58,551 bases of DNA from Flavobacteriales bacterium (lineage in GTDB: Bacteria; Bacteroidota; Bacteroidia; JANQJC01), in the NCBI GenBank assembly GCA_028281825.1, contig JANQJC010000101.1, positions 1 through 58,551 of the forward strand, read 5' to 3'. Made by a program: the position numbers and the translations under genes. Every line of letters begins with the position of its first letter. Within the stretch, counting starts at the first letter, position 1. The notes beneath the pieces were generated by a model that was not told the DNA's origin, ran no database searches, and worked only from the letters and a program-made list of their open reading frames with translations. Positions 18,039 through 46,822 of the stretch are shown here, in pieces.

Positions 18039-19598
18039 ATGAGTACAACTATTTCAGCAGCAGCAGATATTAAGCAAATACTAGATGCCTTTGGTATTGC
18101 CGATGTAAGCAAAGCAGCCAGCACAGGTAGCCAGGAGTATGCATCAGGCGGCGATTTGATAACTTCTATCTCACCGGTTGATGGGCAGAGCATTGCCAGT
18201 GTGCAATCAGCTAGTGCCAATGAGTATGAACAAGTAATTGAAACAGCTCAAAAAGCTTTCAGGGAATGGAGATTAGTGCCTGCCCCCAAGCGAGGTGAAG
18301 TAGTAAGACAGGTAGGAGATGAGTTAAGAAAATATAAACAAGAGTTGGGAACCTTGGTTTCTTACGAGATGGGTAAAAGCTTGCAAGAAGGCTTGGGGGA
18401 AGTGCAGGAAATGATAGATATCTGCGACTTTGCAGTAGGGCTTTCCCGCCAGCTGCACGGCTTGACTATGCATTCTGAAAGACCCAACCACAGGATGTAT
18501 GAGCAATATCATCCACTTGGTGTAGTAGGGATTATCTCTGCCTTCAATTTCCCAGTTGCTGTGTGGTCTTGGAATAGTATGCTGGCTTGGGTTTGTGGTG
18601 ATGTATGTGTTTGGAAACCATCGGAAAAAGCACCTATTTCTGCGGTAGCTTGTCAACGCATCGCTCAGAAGGTTTTTGAAAGAAATAATGTTCCTGAGGG
18701 CGTTTCTTGCCTGATACACGGTAACTATACTGTTGGAGAAATGATAAGTCATGATAAGCGTGTACCTCTGGTTTCAGCTACGGGCTCCATTCGTATGGGT
18801 AAAAAAGTAGGTGAAGCTGTGGGAGCCAGGTTGGGTAAATCATTACTTGAGCTTGGTGGTAATAATGCCATTATCATTACTGAAAATGCAGACTTGGGTC
18901 AATGCTTGCCAGCCATAGTGTTTGGTGCTGTGGGTACTTGTGGTCAACGTTGTACATCAACTCGCAGATTGATTATCCATGAAAGCAGGTATGTAGAAGT
19001 GAAGGAAAAATTGGTAAAAGCGTATGGTCAATTGCGGATTGGTAATCCACTGGATGAGAATAATCATGTTGGGCCATTGATTGATAAAGATGCGGTAGGT
19101 ATGTATCAAAAAGCATTGGTTGAAGTAGTCAACTCAGGAGGTAAGTTGTTAGTTGAAGGCGGTGTACTGGAAGGTGAAGAATATTCGTCAGGATGCTATG
19201 TGAAACCAGCTATTGCCGAGGCCCAAAATGAATATGAAATCGTGCAACATGAAACCTTTGCTCCAATACTGTATTTGTTGAAGTATAATACTTTGGATGA
19301 GGCAATAGAATTGCAAAATGGAGTGGTACAAGGGCTTTCTTCAGCAATTATGACTACCGACCTGCGTGAAGCTGAAGCATTTCTTTCCCATCGCGGTTCT
19401 GACTGCGGAATTGCCAATGTGAATATTGGAACTTCGGGAGCGGAGATAGGTGGCGCCTTTGGCGGTGAGAAAGAAACGGGTGGTGGCCGAGAGTCTGGCT
19501 CTGACGCTTGGAAAATATATATGCGCAGGCAGACCAATACCATTAATTATGGCACTGAACTACCATTAGCACAAGGCATTAAATTTGATATATCATAG
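18039..19598 (+). CDS. ALDH7-family aldehyde dehydrogenase (L-aminoadipate semialdehyde dehydrogenase type)
   Basis: A 519-aa NAD-dependent aldehyde dehydrogenase. Catalytic residues are C305 in TCGQRCTST and E271 in LLELGGNN. The GQRCTSTRRL sequence and the NIGTSGAEIGGAFGGEK segment are typical of the antiquitin (ALDH7A1) branch, which oxidises alpha-aminoadipic semialdehyde to aminoadipate in lysine breakdown. The specific substrate is inferred from branch features. It ends one base before the TTG start of the following lipoprotein. Confidence 0.85.
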   Translation: MSTTISAAADIKQILDAFGIADVSKAASTGSQEYASGGDLITSISPVDGQSIASVQSASANEYEQVIETAQKAFREWRLVPAPKRGEVVRQVGDELRKYKQELGTLVSYEMGKSLQEGLGEVQEMIDICDFAVGLSRQLHGLTMHSERPNHRMYEQYHPLGVVGIISAFNFPVAVWSWNSMLAWVCGDVCVWKPSEKAPISAVACQRIAQKVFERNNVPEGVSCLIHGNYTVGEMISHDKRVPLVSATGSIRMGKKVGEAVGARLGKSLLELGGNNAIIITENADLGQCLPAIVFGAVGTCGQRCTSTRRLIIHESRYVEVKEKLVKAYGQLRIGNPLDENNHVGPLIDKDAVGMYQKALVEVVNSGGKLLVEGGVLEGEEYSSGCYVKPAIAEAQNEYEIVQHETFAPILYLLKYNTLDEAIELQNGVVQGLSSAIMTTDLREAEAFLSHRGSDCGIANVNIGTSGAEIGGAFGGEKETGGGRESGSDAWKIYMRRQTNTINYGTELPLAQGIKFDIS

Positions 19599-19599
19599 C

Positions 19600-20181
19600 T
19601 TGAAAAAGTACCTTACAGTGAAAAGACTATTTATACTCCTTTTCCCTCTGTTATTCTTTTCTTGCCAAGAGCAACAGCAGGAAGTTTTTGAAAAGCCCTA
19701 TTTTGATGTAAAAGGCTTTATTGAGGGTGAAATAGAAAGATTGCAAAAAGAGCAACCCACAATTGAAAAGGTGATTACTACTGACGGTGTAACGGAAAAA
19801 CAAGTAATTACTGATATCGATTGGGAAGATGAACTATCCTCATTTTTGGAGTTGGATATCAATAAACCTTCCTGGAGAAATTCCTACACAGCGGACACAT
19901 CAAAAACTGACAACACATTTAAGATTACCTACACAACAGAGTTAGAAGACCATCCCGTGTACATGCTTGAAGTCACACTGGATAGAAAAACAGGAGAATG
20001 CATTGGTATATGGGGAGGGCATAGCGCAGAAAATTTTGTTTATGAAAGCACACAAAGCTTAAACTATACTAAAGGTGAGGAATATTCAATAACGGGTATG
20101 CTGAGCTTTGAGTTCATATTCAATACCAGCTATCAGGTGTATGTAGGGTTTCTCGGTCAAGATAGTGGGCCTCAAGAGTAA
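19600..20181 (+). CDS. Small lipoprotein of unknown function
   Basis: A 193-aa protein not recognised as a named family. A hydrophobic leader ends in LLFFSCQEQQQ with the cysteine at residue 22, so it is a likely lipoprotein. The mature part is rich in beta-strand and charged residues (residues about 30-190) with no catalytic motif I know. No ATG precedes the leader. I use the TTG at 19600, one base after the ALDH stop; a GTG at 19618 (VKRLFILL) is the alternative. Its tight spacing suggests co-transcription with the dehydrogenase gene. Confidence 0.6.
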   Translation: MKKYLTVKRLFILLFPLLFFSCQEQQQEVFEKPYFDVKGFIEGEIERLQKEQPTIEKVITTDGVTEKQVITDIDWEDELSSFLELDINKPSWRNSYTADTSKTDNTFKITYTTELEDHPVYMLEVTLDRKTGECIGIWGGHSAENFVYESTQSLNYTKGEEYSITGMLSFEFIFNTSYQVYVGFLGQDSGPQE

Positions 20182-20310: not shown

Positions 20311-22386
20311 ATGAATAGAGTTTTACTTTTATTGCCTTCACTCATTTTTATTAGCGCGCTGTCTTTTGCACAGTGCACTACAAGTGATGGCACAGATTGC
20401 TATTGCCCTGATAGTGTTTCTACTGATTGTGAGCTTTTACCTGATTTAACGCTATCATGGGATGCTCTGGAAAATTGGGCAAGTGGACCAAGTGAGTATT
20501 CTCAAACTGGCAATGGAGCCAACAATGGACGTTTAAGAGTTTCGGGTTCAACACCAAATATAGGTTGGGGAGCTTTTGAAGTATGGAGTACAGATTATTA
20601 CGTATGTGGAACAGATACTTTTTATTCTTCTAGTGCACCCACTGAAACTTGTGTAGACCCTAATACCAGTATGACGCATGATACCAAACAACTATTGAAG
20701 CAAAGGGTATATCATAAAGATGGGAGTGCTATGACTTATACTGACAGGTGGGCCGGCGCCATGACTTATCACCCAACACACAATCACTATCACGTGGATG
20801 ATTGGGTGGCTTTTACGCTTAGAACACCAACGCCTAACCCAAACCCACTTACATGGCCTATCATCGGCGACGGTGCTAAGATTGGCTTCTGCCTCATGGA
20901 TTATGGCAGGTGTGGTTCTTCCACTTACAGCGGGCATTGCCGTGATGACCAATCTGTATATGGTCAGGGAACTATCCTGGGTGATAATGACTTCGCCAAC
21001 TACGGACACGGAGGTATGAACTATAGCTGTTCGCCAGTAGTACAAGGTATTTCTGTGGGTTGGACAGATGTTTATGGAGAACACCTGGATGGAATGTGGA
21101 TTGATATCCCGCCTGGTACATGCAACGGCGACTATTGGATTGTAGGTCAGGTTGACCCAAATAACGTGTTCCTTGAAATGGATGAAACCAACAACTGGAC
21201 GGCTATCCCATATACAGTAACTGAACAAGTACCAAACAGCACTGAGCCCGCAACTATTGTTGCTGACGGTTCAACCATGCAATGCGAAGGTGCTGAAGTT
21301 GTATTGACAGCGAACTCTGGCAACGGTTATGTTTGGTCAACTGGTGATACAACTCAATCAATTACGGTAACGGAAACTGGTGACTACAGTGTAAACGTTG
21401 TCTCAACTTGTGGAATAGCATCTTCAGACCCATTTAATGTAGCCTTCAGCCATATTGATGCCCCAAATGCTGAAAACGATACCGTATGGGCTACTTCAGG
21501 TTCAGCTAACCTTACTGCAACAGGTTCAGATTTACATTGGTTTGATACTATTGTTGGCGGTACTGAGATAGGCACGGGTACAACGTATACTACCCCTGTA
21601 CTAACAACAACTACTACTTACTACGTTGAAGAAAGAGTCGCTTACAATGGCATGCAATATAATACTGGTAAGCCTGATAATACAGGTGGTGGTGGTTACT
21701 TTAACGGCAGCCAAAACCTTGTATTTGATGCCATGAGTGATTTTGTACTGAAGTCAGTAAAAGTATATGCTGATGGTGCTGGCGATAGAGAGGTAGTGTT
21801 GAGAAATAGCCAGGGAGATTTATTGGAAACTGAAACCGTTAGTGTTCCAGATGGCGAAAGTAGGATTACACTTGACTGGGATATACCTACGGATACTGAT
21901 TACGAGCTTCACCTTGAAAGCCAGTTAAAAGACTTGTACAGGAATAACGATGGTGTTAATTTTCCTTACGATGTGGCAGGTGTAGCTTCAGTTAAATCAT
22001 CATCTGCTGGTGACCAGTATTACTATTTTTATTACGATTGGGAAATCGCTACTCCTGACTATACTTGTGAAAGTGAGCGCACTCCAGTGGATGCAGTCAT
22101 AAATCCCGATGTATCAGTGAGTATGCATGAAGTAGTTAAAAATTTCACAATATTCCCGAACCCATCACAGGGGGTCGTTAATCTGTCTTTTGAAACAGAA
22201 AGAACATCAAGCTTGAATGTGAAAATTGTTGACCCTTTAAGCAAAGTTATTTTTACAGATACTCAGACTAGCTTTAAGGGAAAATACAATAAAGAGCTTG
22301 ACTTAAGTGGGTTCGCTAAAGGTGTTTACCATGTTGATATCACTTTAGATGACCTCCCACTATACAAAACTGTGGTAATTCAGTAG
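20311..22386 (+). CDS. Lysyl oxidase-like secreted copper protein with T9SS sorting domain
   Basis: A 691-aa protein with a signal peptide (ending SFAQ). Residues about 45-305 match the lysyl oxidase family: the copper-binding segment H154-PT-H157-N-H159-Y-H161, K190 (in AKIGFCL) and Y255 (in DVYGEHLDG). By alignment with animal enzymes K190 and Y255 fall where the lysine and tyrosine join to form the lysine tyrosylquinone cofactor. The end of the domain, WIDIPPGTCNGDYW then EMDETNN, also matches. A spaced Ig-like region and a further beta-domain follow (about 310-600), then a T9SS type A tail (IFPNPSQG to the end). It probably acts outside the cell on amines, perhaps on protein lysines. Substrate unknown. 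Confidence 0.8.
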   Translation: MNRVLLLLPSLIFISALSFAQCTTSDGTDCYCPDSVSTDCELLPDLTLSWDALENWASGPSEYSQTGNGANNGRLRVSGSTPNIGWGAFEVWSTDYYVCGTDTFYSSSAPTETCVDPNTSMTHDTKQLLKQRVYHKDGSAMTYTDRWAGAMTYHPTHNHYHVDDWVAFTLRTPTPNPNPLTWPIIGDGAKIGFCLMDYGRCGSSTYSGHCRDDQSVYGQGTILGDNDFANYGHGGMNYSCSPVVQGISVGWTDVYGEHLDGMWIDIPPGTCNGDYWIVGQVDPNNVFLEMDETNNWTAIPYTVTEQVPNSTEPATIVADGSTMQCEGAEVVLTANSGNGYVWSTGDTTQSITVTETGDYSVNVVSTCGIASSDPFNVAFSHIDAPNAENDTVWATSGSANLTATGSDLHWFDTIVGGTEIGTGTTYTTPVLTTTTTYYVEERVAYNGMQYNTGKPDNTGGGGYFNGSQNLVFDAMSDFVLKSVKVYADGAGDREVVLRNSQGDLLETETVSVPDGESRITLDWDIPTDTDYELHLESQLKDLYRNNDGVNFPYDVAGVASVKSSSAGDQYYYFYYDWEIATPDYTCESERTPVDAVINPDVSVSMHEVVKNFTIFPNPSQGVVNLSFETERTSSLNVKIVDPLSKVIFTDTQTSFKGKYNKELDLSGFAKGVYHVDITLDDLPLYKTVVIQ

Positions 22387-22468: not shown

Positions 22469-23719
22469 GTGTATAAGTTTTTTGCTAGCATTTCATTATT
22501 ATCTATCTCAGTGCTGAGTTTCTCCCAGCAATGGACCATATATAACCAAGTTAATTCCCAACTCCCTCAGAACTCGGTGAGAGCATTAACCGTGGATGAT
22601 GCCAACAACAAATGGATAGGTACTGATAATGGCCTGGCTGTATTTGATGGCTCAATTTGGACTGTCTATAACGAGTCAAATTCAGGATTGCCCTCAAACA
22701 TTGTTAGGTGTATAGCAATAGACAGTCAAAACAATAAATGGATAGGCACCACCAATGGCCTCGCAAAATTTGATGGCATCAACTGGACAGTATACCAGCC
22801 AAGCAACTCCGATATACCAGATAACTTAATAAAGACGATTGATTTTGACTCACAGGGCGATGTTTGGGTAGGTACAACTACTGGTATCGGTAGGTTTGAC
22901 GGTGTAAATTGGTATGTATACTCATCTAATGACTCGTCTTATAATTCTCAAATACTTACCTCTGAAAACATCCCCGCAATAGATATCAGCAATGAAGATG
23001 TTGTTGCAGTAGGTACAATCAATGGTGGGCTTATTTATTTGACAGATACCTCCTACACGCTTTTTGATAGCTGGACAACAGGACTGCCTGATAATACTAT
23101 TCTATGTATAAGTCATGATAGTGACGGAAATAGATGGATGGGTACCCCAGGTGCGGGTATTTTAGTGCACTACAGTAATCATACCAGCAACATATGGTCC
23201 CAATTCAATATGTGGAACTCTTTTAATCCTTCCAACAGTATCAATACTATATTGATAGATAATGAAGACAGGATGATTGCAGGCAGCCAGGATGCTGGAG
23301 TCATTTTCTATTTAGGCGGAGCAAACTGGACTAGCCTTGATTCGGTGAACAGCAATCTGCCAGACAATTTTATCTACTCGCTGGCTTTGGATAACGAAGG
23401 GGTATTATGGGTGGGGACTTATCAGAATGGTTTGGTTACACTTGATTATAGCAATTGGGTTGGAATTGAAACCAATACCCCCCCGAAGCAATCCAATGTA
23501 TACCCTAATCCATCAAATGGCATTTTTTGGGTTGACTGGGAAGGTGGAGAAGCGTTAATTTCTGTTTATGATATGTTCGGAAAGGAAGTATATCAAAAAC
23601 AACATTTTTTTTCCAAGAAAGGAGCTTTTGATTTGTCTCACTTGGCCAATGGAATGTATTTGATACAGATAGATGTTAATGGTCAAAGGGCTAGCAACAG
23701 AATAATAATATCCAAGTAA
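22469..23719 (+). CDS. Two-component-regulator-type beta-propeller protein with T9SS sorting domain
   Basis: A 416-aa secreted protein. After a signal peptide (ending SFSQ) it has repeated propeller motifs with the pattern NKWIGT-x-GLA-x-FDG-x-x-WTVY, at about residues 45, 88, 130 and further weaker copies up to about 335. Such ligand-binding blades are best known in hybrid two-component sensors, but here no histidine kinase follows. A T9SS type A tail (about 345-416, YPNPSNG to RIIISK) sends it outside the cell. The start is a GTG at 22469 with TAGGAG about 8 nt upstream. Its function is not known. Confidence 0.75.
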   Translation: MYKFFASISLLSISVLSFSQQWTIYNQVNSQLPQNSVRALTVDDANNKWIGTDNGLAVFDGSIWTVYNESNSGLPSNIVRCIAIDSQNNKWIGTTNGLAKFDGINWTVYQPSNSDIPDNLIKTIDFDSQGDVWVGTTTGIGRFDGVNWYVYSSNDSSYNSQILTSENIPAIDISNEDVVAVGTINGGLIYLTDTSYTLFDSWTTGLPDNTILCISHDSDGNRWMGTPGAGILVHYSNHTSNIWSQFNMWNSFNPSNSINTILIDNEDRMIAGSQDAGVIFYLGGANWTSLDSVNSNLPDNFIYSLALDNEGVLWVGTYQNGLVTLDYSNWVGIETNTPPKQSNVYPNPSNGIFWVDWEGGEALISVYDMFGKEVYQKQHFFSKKGAFDLSHLANGMYLIQIDVNGQRASNRIIISK

Positions 23720-40238: not shown

Positions 40239-42389
40239 ATGTCGGCTGTTCAGAATAAAGTTATCCTTAATGTAGAGGGCATGACCTGTGCCAATTGCGC
40301 TAGGGGTATTAGCAATGCTTTACAGGGAATGAAGCTTGAAGGCGTAAATGTTGATTTTGCCTCAGGTGAGGTAGCCTATGAAGACAGCTATGAAATTGCC
40401 CGTGAAGTAGTAGTAGGTAAGATAGAAAAGCTTGGTTATCAGGTAGTTGATAAAGATGCTCAATCTGAAAAGCATAAGCACGGGCCGTCAAGTATTGAAA
40501 AGAGATTTATTGTATCCGCTATTTTTACTATTCCACTCTTTTTTGGGCATGTATTGGTTAGTGTTGGACTCCTTTCCCATGAGTCGTTTATTGTAAACCC
40601 ATGGGTTCAATTAGTATTGTGCGTTCCCGTATTCCTGTTGGGGATGGTCTATTTTGGCAGAAGTGCACTTAATTCACTAAAAAGTGGAGTGCCCAATATG
40701 GACGTGCTTATAACCATTGGTTCGTCAGCGGCCTTTGTGTATAGTGTTGCAGGACTATTTTTATACTCGGGCAATGAGGTGCACAATTACCTTTTTTTCG
40801 AAACGGCAGCTACAATTATTACATTGGTCCTTCTAGGTAATGTATTAGAGCATCGTTCAGTACAACAAACGACAACTGCTCTTAAGGACCTTATGAAAAT
40901 GAAAGAAGGGACTACCAAAAAAGTTGTTGAAGAACACGGGCATGAGCATATTATAGACATTACCATCAAAAGTGTAAAAGAGGGCGATATCTTGCAGGTG
41001 AATCAGGGAGACAAAGTGCCTGTTGATGGTAAAATTACAAAGGGTAATGTATCAGTAGATGAATCAATGCTTACTGGTGAAAGTTTGGCTATTGACAAAG
41101 GTATTGGTGAGAGAGTGGTGGGGGGTACCATTCTGGTGAATGGAAATATGCGTATGGTCGCAGAAAAGGTGGGAGCGGAAACAGTTCTTTCTCAGATTAT
41201 ACAAATGGTGAGGCAAGCGCAACATGAAAAGCCTGCTATTCAGAAGTTGGGCGACCAAGTGAGTAGTGTTTTTGTTCCCGTAGTTCTTGGAATATCAGCA
41301 TTAACCATGCTCTTGAGTTATTTTGCTTTTGGTGTGAGTTTACAAAGCTCATTGATGAACAGTATTGCCGTGTTGGTAATTTCATGCCCCTGTGCAATGG
41401 GGTTAGCAACACCAACGGCTGTAATGGTAGGTATTGGAAGAGCCGCCAAAAACGGTATATTGATAAAAGGGGGCAATACCTTAGAAGAACTAGCCAAAGT
41501 GGATAAAGTAGTGTTCGACAAAACCGGAACTCTGACAACCGGTGAATTTAAAATAAGCAAGATTGCGACTTTGAATGGTGTAAGTAAAAAAGAAATTACA
41601 GATATACTTTACAATGCAGAGCAGCATTCATCACATCCAATAGCTAAATCAATAGTTAATGAGTTGAAGGGTAGGGCAGGTGAAATGGAATTGGAAGTGA
41701 GGGAGGAAAAAGGCATGGGGTTATATGTGACAACGAAGGCTGGGGATGAGTATACTATTGGTTCGCACAAGGTAGTTGAAAGTGAGATAAAGGAAGCACA
41801 CAATCTTTACATTTTGAGGAATAAGAAACTAGTTGGATATATTGACTTAGACGATGAAATTAAACCATACGCCAGGGAGACAATTAAACTATTAAATGCC
41901 CAAGGCAGGGAAACAATATTACTAAGTGGTGATAAGCAGGAGAGGTGTCAAGAGTTAGCTTCAAAACTGGGCGTAAAAACCGTTTACAGTGAGCAATCTC
42001 CAGAACAGAAACTGAAGATTATTAGTGATTTGAGTGAACGAGGAAAGGTGGCTATGGTGGGTGACGGTATTAATGATGCGCCCGCTCTTGCTAAAGCCAC
42101 GGTGGGTATTTCTATGGGAGATGCTACCCAAGTGGCAATTGCTTCTGCTGGAGTTGTGCTGTTGAGCAAAGGGGGTTTGAAACAGTTGTATGAAGCTTTC
42201 TTGGTGAGTAAGCATACTTTAAAAACCATTAAACAGAATTTATTCTGGGCTTTCTTCTATAATGTAATTGCTATACCAATAGCGGCAGTCGGCCTTTTGA
42301 GCCCAATGATAGCGGCTCTTTCAATGGCTTTTTCTGATGTAATTGTGATTGGCAACTCTATAAGGTTAAAGGTGAAAAGTCTCAAATAG
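40239..42389 (+). CDS. copA: Copper-exporting P-type ATPase
   Basis: A 716-aa P1B-type ATPase. An N-terminal heavy-metal domain has C17-A-N-C20 in GMTCANCA. The membrane ion-binding motif is C383-P-C385, and the phosphorylated aspartate is D427 in DKTGTLT. The actuator TGES and nucleotide-site SSHPIAKS and GDGINDAPAL motifs are all present. CPC with a single MxCxxC domain fits Cu(I) export from the cytoplasm. The next gene begins 5 nt after its stop. Promoter box unusually near the start. Confidence 0.95.
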   Translation: MSAVQNKVILNVEGMTCANCARGISNALQGMKLEGVNVDFASGEVAYEDSYEIAREVVVGKIEKLGYQVVDKDAQSEKHKHGPSSIEKRFIVSAIFTIPLFFGHVLVSVGLLSHESFIVNPWVQLVLCVPVFLLGMVYFGRSALNSLKSGVPNMDVLITIGSSAAFVYSVAGLFLYSGNEVHNYLFFETAATIITLVLLGNVLEHRSVQQTTTALKDLMKMKEGTTKKVVEEHGHEHIIDITIKSVKEGDILQVNQGDKVPVDGKITKGNVSVDESMLTGESLAIDKGIGERVVGGTILVNGNMRMVAEKVGAETVLSQIIQMVRQAQHEKPAIQKLGDQVSSVFVPVVLGISALTMLLSYFAFGVSLQSSLMNSIAVLVISCPCAMGLATPTAVMVGIGRAAKNGILIKGGNTLEELAKVDKVVFDKTGTLTTGEFKISKIATLNGVSKKEITDILYNAEQHSSHPIAKSIVNELKGRAGEMELEVREEKGMGLYVTTKAGDEYTIGSHKVVESEIKEAHNLYILRNKKLVGYIDLDDEIKPYARETIKLLNAQGRETILLSGDKQERCQELASKLGVKTVYSEQSPEQKLKIISDLSERGKVAMVGDGINDAPALAKATVGISMGDATQVAIASAGVVLLSKGGLKQLYEAFLVSKHTLKTIKQNLFWAFFYNVIAIPIAAVGLLSPMIAALSMAFSDVIVIGNSIRLKVKSLK

Positions 42390-44977: not shown

Positions 44978-46822
44978 ATGAAAAGATTATTACTACCTAT
45001 TGGTTTGTTTTTGATTTCATTTGCCGTAATGGGTCAAAACCAAGTCTTAAGGAATGCTTCGGTGAAGATTCCAGTTCCTACGAAGCCTGGTGACAGACAA
45101 ATGGCTGGAACACAAAGTGACATTATATTAACACCTCCTGCTGCAGCTGCCGCAAATCCATTGGAGAGAATTATTGGTGGTTCAACTTATGACCTTCAGT
45201 CGAACTCTTCAGTAGGTGGCCGTATTGAAAATGTTGACGGCAAAATTATTGCAGTTTGGACATTTAGTTCAGATGGCGGTACAGGCTTGACCTTTTTAGA
45301 TAGAGGTACAGGATATGCCTATTTTGATGGCAGCGCATGGGATGATAACCCAGGGCAGAGAGTTGAGTCGAAAAGGATTGGATGGCCTTCAATTGTCACT
45401 CTGGCAAATGGTAAAGAAGTTATTGTAAGCCATAATACAGATGCTCAAATTGAAGACCTCCAGATTACTTCAAGGCCAACAATCGGTTCTGGCAGTTGGA
45501 CCGAAGATGTAACCAACTTACAGAGTCCTGCTACTGGCGGCAGTTGGTGGCCAAGAGCAGTTGCTGGTGGTACTGATGGCAACTCTATCCACTTAATTTC
45601 ATTAACTTACCCCGTGGCCAACGGTGGTGCTGCTTACCTTGGCATGGATGGAGCCATACTATATTCTCGCTCTACTGATGGTGGTTCTACATGGGATATT
45701 AGCCATACACAATTGGCGGGTATGGACTCAACTGGCTACCTTGGCTTTAGTGCTGACGATTACGATTGGGCAAACTCGGTAGGTGACACTATTGCATTTG
45801 TTGTTGGTGGTATGTTCCAGGATTTATTCTTGATGAAGTCTACAGATAATGGTGATACCTGGACTAAAACCATGGTACACCAATTTCAGGTTCCAAAGTT
45901 TGATGAAACTCAAGACCTTATTACAGATACAGTAGTAACCAATGATGGTACCGTTTCCGTAATTCTAGACCAAAATGGAATGGCTCACGTTTTTGCGGGG
46001 GGCTGCCCTATTATGAATGATGACACCACTGATGGTCAATTCAGCTTTTTTGGAAACCAAAGTGTGATATACTATTGGAATGAGAACTACGGTAGCAATG
46101 GGCCTGACTCAATTGCTGCTATGGTAGATAGGGATGGTGATATGTTTGCTGGCCTTGCAGATTTGGCTCTTGCATCTAATGGATATACTATTAGCCTGGC
46201 TTCACAACCAAGTGCAGCCATTGATGAGAATGGTGTTATCTATTTGGCTTATAGTGGTGTATGCGAAGACTTGACAGATGGTAATCACCATTACAGGCAT
46301 ATTTACCTTACAAAATCAGAAGACGGTGGTACTAACTGGACTCCTGCTGTTGACTTGAACTATCTTCCAGATGATGAGTTTACAGAAAATGTGTTTGCCA
46401 GCTTAGCGCATAACGTGGATGACCACTTACACATTGTGTATCAGCGTGACTTTGAAGCTGGAATGGCTGTAAGGCCTGAACCAGGTGACCATGGAGTTAC
46501 AAGCAATGAGATAGTTTATGTGAAGGTACCTACTAAATTGAATGTAGGTATGGCTGAAGAAGCTATTATTCACAGGGACTTTAGTATTTATCCAAACCCA
46601 ACCAACGAAAGCGTTACTATGAACTTTATCATGGATAGGGCTGAAGTAGTTGTGGTTGATATCCATGATATGATGGGTAAACTAGTAGAAACTTTCTCAA
46701 ACAAGTCTGCTGCTGGTGCTAACCAACTTGCTTTAGATGTAAGTCACCTTAGTAGTGGTGTTTATTTTATAAATGCAACTGTTGGTGAACAAAGAATAAG
46801 CAAGAAATTGATTGTTGAATAA
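44978..46822 (+). CDS. Asp-box (BNR/sialidase-like) secreted protein with T9SS sorting domain
   Basis: A 614-aa secreted protein (signal peptide ending AVMGQ). Asp-boxes of the form S-x-D-x-G-x-x-W occur three times: SRSTDGGSTWD (about residue 230), KSTDNGDTWTK (about 290) and KSEDGGTNWTP (about 450), indicating a sialidase-type propeller. The catalytic arginine triad of sialidases was not identified, so enzymatic activity is uncertain. A T9SS type A tail opens with IYPNPTNE near residue 533 and ends KKLIVE. Strong promoter and terminator enclose it. Confidence 0.75.
   Translation: MKRLLLPIGLFLISFAVMGQNQVLRNASVKIPVPTKPGDRQMAGTQSDIILTPPAAAAANPLERIIGGSTYDLQSNSSVGGRIENVDGKIIAVWTFSSDGGTGLTFLDRGTGYAYFDGSAWDDNPGQRVESKRIGWPSIVTLANGKEVIVSHNTDAQIEDLQITSRPTIGSGSWTEDVTNLQSPATGGSWWPRAVAGGTDGNSIHLISLTYPVANGGAAYLGMDGAILYSRSTDGGSTWDISHTQLAGMDSTGYLGFSADDYDWANSVGDTIAFVVGGMFQDLFLMKSTDNGDTWTKTMVHQFQVPKFDETQDLITDTVVTNDGTVSVILDQNGMAHVFAGGCPIMNDDTTDGQFSFFGNQSVIYYWNENYGSNGPDSIAAMVDRDGDMFAGLADLALASNGYTISLASQPSAAIDENGVIYLAYSGVCEDLTDGNHHYRHIYLTKSEDGGTNWTPAVDLNYLPDDEFTENVFASLAHNVDDHLHIVYQRDFEAGMAVRPEPGDHGVTSNEIVYVKVPTKLNVGMAEEAIIHRDFSIYPNPTNESVTMNFIMDRAEVVVVDIHDMMGKLVETFSNKSAAGANQLALDVSHLSSGVYFINATVGEQRISKKLIVE

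Follow-up and report, generated by a model that had tools for sequence, protein, structure and literature searches.

A lysyl oxidase-family protein with a type IX secretion tail and a recurrent propeller neighbour in Bacteroidia

Introduction

Lysyl oxidases (LOX) in Bacteroidetes were reported in 2015 by Grau-Bove et al. (PMC4448552), whose survey found only three prokaryotic LOX that depart from a simple architecture and, among bacteria, no conservation of the first histidine. HTU-LOX from the archaeon Haloterrigena turkmenica, the one prokaryotic LOX studied, accepts lysine peptides and many amines as substrates (PMC6452851) and has been called cryptic. For the animal enzymes (LOX, LOXL1-4; PF01186), known for cross-linking collagen, the only LOX crystal structure is the LOXL2 entry 5ZE3, in which the histidines lie on a loop and a short strand, the lysine lies on a strand and the tyrosine is C-terminal in another strand (PMC9659206).

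Here we describe a LOX-family protein encoded in a 58,551-nucleotide stretch of DNA from a Flavobacteriales bacterium, referred to as the window throughout. It shares family and phylum with prokaryotic LOX of the 2015 survey and differs from what was described there in having a type IX secretion system (T9SS) tail, an Ig_7 domain, a conserved first histidine and an exported partner. Going by its description, HTU-LOX resembles it as a prokaryotic LOX that has the residues for copper and for the quinone, but it is archaeal and not a T9SS cargo. Animal LOX share with the protein the HxHxH motif, including the extra first histidine, the lysine of the FCL motif, the tyrosine of the D-x-Y-G motif and the fold. 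In contrast, identity in the fold alignment is only about 17%, the cysteine pattern differs, the lysine and tyrosine are 65 residues apart here and 36 apart in LOXL2 (K653/Y689), and the SRCR domains or propeptide are missing, with the Ig_7 domain and T9SS tail present instead. As in other T9SS cargo (TIGR04183/PF18962), there is a sorting domain scoring above curated cut-offs; a putative signal peptide can be read by eye, and what sets the protein apart is that the passenger is a LOX. We found no publication on a T9SS-borne LOX in the open-access literature, to which the search was confined. What is already known is thus the LOX family in Bacteroidetes, and what is new here is a T9SS-tailed propeller as a recurrent LOX neighbour.

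Results and Discussion

The features of the LOX gene and its product are given below. Conservation counts refer to the 101 Bacteroidia loci compared, which represent about 87 distinct loci, as some are present twice, from two collections.

20311..22386, + strand: T9SS-tailed LOX-domain protein, 691 aa, ATG start (open reading frame with Pfam LOX, Ig_7 and Por_Secre_tail matches)
20311..20370, + strand: putative signal peptide, residues 1-20, a hydrophobic stretch ending SFA-QC
20371..21228, + strand: LOX catalytic domain, residues 21-306 (AF2 model, Foldseek match to LOXL2 5ze3, 25-member alignment)
20770..20793, + strand: copper motif H154-P-T-H157-N-H159-Y-H161, all four histidines intact in 92 of 101 loci
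20878..20880, + strand: K190, presumed lysine of the lysine tyrosylquinone (LTQ), in 101 of 101 loci, aligned with the FCL-motif lysine of LOXL2
21073..21075, + strand: Y255, presumed LTQ tyrosine, in 101 of 101 loci, aligned with the LOXL2 tyrosine
21463..21636, + strand: Ig_7 (CHU_C-associated) domain, residues 385-442 (PF19081, E 4.9e-9)
22150..22377, + strand: T9SS C-terminal sorting domain, residues 614-689 (PF18962 Por_Secre_tail, E 1.7e-11)

A Pfam search of the 691-aa protein retrieved the lysyl oxidase family PF01186 with an E-value of 1.4e-11 and 44.9 bits against a cut-off of 20.4. Because this match spans residues 236-299 only, leaving the first half of the LOX domain Pfam-silent, that half was checked by other means. 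A profile of 54 relatives was aligned with hhalign to a canonical bacterial LOX chosen as reference (L003; Pfam LOX E 9e-33), and the HxHxH, K and Y columns came out in register. The AF2 model of residues 20-307 has a pLDDT of 93.6 and a pTM of 0.90, and a Foldseek search of the PDB with this model gave two matches below E 0.001, both of them chains of human LOXL2 in 5ze3 (chains B and A, E 2.2e-7 and 3.5e-7, probability 1.00, with a TM-score that is low at 0.40). Together, the profile alignment and the predicted fold indicate that the Pfam-silent first half is real LOX. The LOX identity first proposed from the sequence is thus borne out by the Pfam score, the LOXL2 fold match and the alignment to a canonical bacterial LOX, and all six residues named in that sequence-only reading (H154, H157, H159, H161, K190 and Y255) are present at those positions.

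Structure prediction and comparison with an animal LOX, which had been suggested as a check, gave LOXL2 as the only significant PDB match of the model. DSSP assignment on the model places H157 in a loop and H159 and H161 at a short strand (140-143 in model numbering), with K190 ending strand 165-171 and Y255 closing strand 232-236 (model numbering for both strands). In the model, this predicted placement of the catalytic residues relative to the strands agrees with the published LOXL2 description. An overlay with K190 and Y255 far from the copper histidines had been put forward as evidence against the enzyme, and this criterion turns out to be invalid: in 5ZE3 itself the equivalent residues, Lys653 and Tyr689, are 16.6 Å apart because the crystal is of a zinc-bound precursor (PMC9659206), and a large distance in an overlay therefore refutes nothing.

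Export is suggested at both ends of the protein. Cleavage of the signal peptide would be expected before Q21-C22, and the C-terminal region also matches the T9SS type A domain TIGR04183 (28.5 bits, cut-off 23). The genome of the window encodes a T9SS, with SprA scoring 2128.7 bits in a profile search, and has at least 150 T9SS tails and this one LOX copy only. The combination of a tail above curated cut-offs and SprA in the genome supports the T9SS routing proposed earlier.

A T9SS-borne LOX is not an oddity of one genome. A search with the LOX domain in a sample of 395 genomes from the class found matches at E <= 0.001 in 69; discounting four weak ones, with E of roughly 1e-4 to 7e-4, about 65 of the 395 have homologues. 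In a differently drawn sample of the phylum, the Pfam model detected LOX in 4 of 395 genomes, so the frequency of LOX depends on sampling. A scan of GTDB contigs returned 330 relatives, of which the best 80 were kept; nearly all of these are metagenome-assembled, and they are titled Flavobacteriales, Crocinitomicaceae, Sphingobacteriales, Chitinophagales and unclassified Bacteroidia, with species names that are unreliable for such assemblies. In the 43 full-length relatives, the LOX domain is found in all 43, Ig_7 in 41 and the T9SS tail in 37. A second, diverged subfamily consists of 13 sequences of about 610 aa that are 35-44% identical, and all 13 have all catalytic residues. Viral contigs were also searched for LOX, with zero matches. 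The genome of the window is the sole member of its order and family among the genomes searched and therefore stands for a deep-branching, poorly sampled lineage.

Directly downstream of the LOX gene lies a second gene for a T9SS-tailed protein, overlooked in the sequence-only reading.

22469..23719, + strand: seven-bladed Reg_prop beta-propeller partner (PF07494, E 8.6e-23)
23498-23710, + strand: T9SS tail of the partner (PF18962, E 4.8e-14)

The AF2 model of the partner (pLDDT 90.3) has as its closest folds the BT4663/BT3049 sensor propellers and PorZ (4a2l, 3v9f, 5m11), and it also matches Vgb propellers. Unlike the BT4663-type sensors and PorZ, the partner is a single propeller with a T9SS tail and no kinase, and at 74.4 bits it misses the PorZ equivalog cut-off of 260. 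By neighbour clustering, a propeller of the partner's family occurs near LOX in 67 of the 101 loci, some of which are present twice; in 55 it immediately follows LOX on the same strand (+1), and in nine it takes position -1. Among the best 80 of the 330 GTDB loci, which are non-redundant, it is a LOX neighbour in 56 and lies directly downstream in 46; it is absent from the other 24, some of which are on short contigs, and is also absent beside LOX of the second subfamily. The gaps between the two genes are mostly -4 to +12 nt (82 nt in the window), and the frequent 4-nt overlap suggests that LOX and propeller are translationally coupled. We considered the propeller as a substrate to be cross-linked and found this unsupported, as it has about 3% lysine and no strongly conserved lysine (the best column has 29 K of 50), which makes an adaptor or binding protein more likely than a substrate.

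From these features, the following mechanism can be proposed. The signal peptide would carry the protein across the inner membrane, and the T9SS tail, given SprA in the genome, would direct passage over the outer membrane followed by anchoring or release. By homology, copper held by H157, H159 and H161 would, with O2, convert Y255 and K190 to lysine tyrosylquinone, and the quinone would deaminate primary amines, most likely those of lysine residues in proteins of the surface or matrix, yielding allysine, NH3 and H2O2. The T9SS-tailed propeller would most likely bind or present the substrate or hold the enzyme at the surface. We consider it likely that the LOX protein is an exported, active copper amine oxidase. 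Its purpose is the least certain part of this mechanism, and we propose protein-lysine modification or cross-linking only tentatively. The large size of the clade, its defined export route and its conserved partner nevertheless offer a handle on the native function of prokaryotic LOX, since one can search for the ligand of the partner and for allysine in surface proteins; if a bacterial surface matrix were cross-linked, it would form a bacterial parallel to LOX chemistry of the animal extracellular matrix.

Two further genes lie upstream of LOX in the window.

18039..19598, + strand: L-piperidine-6-carboxylate (allysine) dehydrogenase (NF050084, 832.5 bits, cut-off 730)
19600..20181, + strand: small putative lipoprotein with an LLFFS-C lipobox and no family, listed from 19585

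The exported amine oxidase could instead feed on amines, stripping nitrogen from free amines, polyamines or lysyl peptides outside the cell. The resulting aldehydes would then enter the cell for oxidation, perhaps by the neighbouring dehydrogenase, which would use up free allysine. Cadaverine, taurine and histamine are among the substrates of HTU-LOX, for which a part in nitrogen supply has been proposed (PMC6452851). The dehydrogenase gene is upstream of LOX not only in the window but also in three other genomes, at 1.3-1.4 kb in L049/L125 and L054 and at about 7.7 kb in L040, and the tree puts L125, L054 and the window on different branches. Yet the gene is near-universal, being present in 340 of 395 class genomes, and its adjacency is rare, with a dehydrogenase near LOX in one of the best 80 of the 330 GTDB loci. 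We therefore rejected it as a pathway link, and the association is a weak lead. A scavenger of small amines would, moreover, need no co-encoded exported propeller. Overall, we regard amine feeding as unlikely, though it is the strongest of the rival readings.

As for the other upstream gene, homologues of the lipoprotein lie two genes upstream of LOX in four of the best 80 of the 330 GTDB loci (L074, L113, L117 and L121).

Among the 101 loci, nine (seven distinct) have lost the histidine motif, which reads HGSY, RGSY, RGTY, DNTH or --GH, while all nine retain K190 and Y255.

L122, 9001-11070: LOX homologue lacking the copper histidines
L047, L110/L046, L116, L119, L130 and L132: further LOX homologues lacking the copper histidines

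In a quick tree, the loss of the copper histidines requires at least two changes. Each of the nine lies beside a gene for a 4Fe-4S/TPR membrane protein and beside genes of cytochrome type, a DUF5777 barrel accompanies most of them, and none of the nine has the propeller next to it; the 4Fe-4S/cytochrome context is also common to a few members with intact histidines. In five loci, an apparent NapH three genes before LOX proved to be a clustering artefact, as the genes encode TPR proteins. Possibly, the copper-less group has turned the LOX fold to a new use connected with electron transfer.

Since the copper-less homologues keep both K and Y, conservation of these residues alone does not show quinone formation, and we ruled it out as proof of activity; the two residues may be structural. 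A further reading is a non-catalytic use of the LOX fold as an adhesion or metal-binding surface module with a metal bound by the histidines and no quinone. The persistence of K and Y in two lineages without copper histidines is consistent with it, as are weak matches of 18 of 25 LOX domains to the CARDB adhesion domain and the presence of CARDB 3idu in the fold list of the LOX-domain model (E 0.045). However, the protein encoded in the window has the copper motif intact together with K and Y, as do 92 of the 101 loci and all members of the diverged subfamily, and we find a non-catalytic role improbable. More speculative than the amine oxidase itself, and in our view rather doubtful as a whole, is a combined scenario in which, in many uncultured Bacteroidia, LOX and its propeller adaptor, both exported by the T9SS, covalently cross-link the cell's own surface or matrix proteins, and a sister lineage that dropped copper uses a ferredoxin/cytochrome module.

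In nine relatives, a gene for a redoxin/TlpA-like protein lies immediately upstream of LOX (for example L125:7642-8874, L074:7641-8807 and L054:7375-8577), and its product might handle H2O2 or the disulfides or copper of LOX. Defence or offence by means of H2O2 and aldehydes, through oxidation of amine antibiotics or of competitors' surface lysines, could draw on this neighbour and on the oxidation of polymyxin and aminoglycosides by HTU-LOX (PMC6452851), but the context is of no defence type, the redoxin gene is absent from the window and from most loci, and substrate promiscuity alone is uninformative on purpose, all of which makes this use very improbable.

Elsewhere in the window, a copper-translocating P-type ATPase (40239-42389; TIGR01511, 532.5 bits, cut-off 397) is encoded 18 kb from LOX and is a possible copper supply for it. 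The window also encodes two further T9SS-tailed proteins (1177-2829 and 44978-46822), one of which is a PQQ-type glucose/sorbosone dehydrogenase and the other of which has no assigned function.
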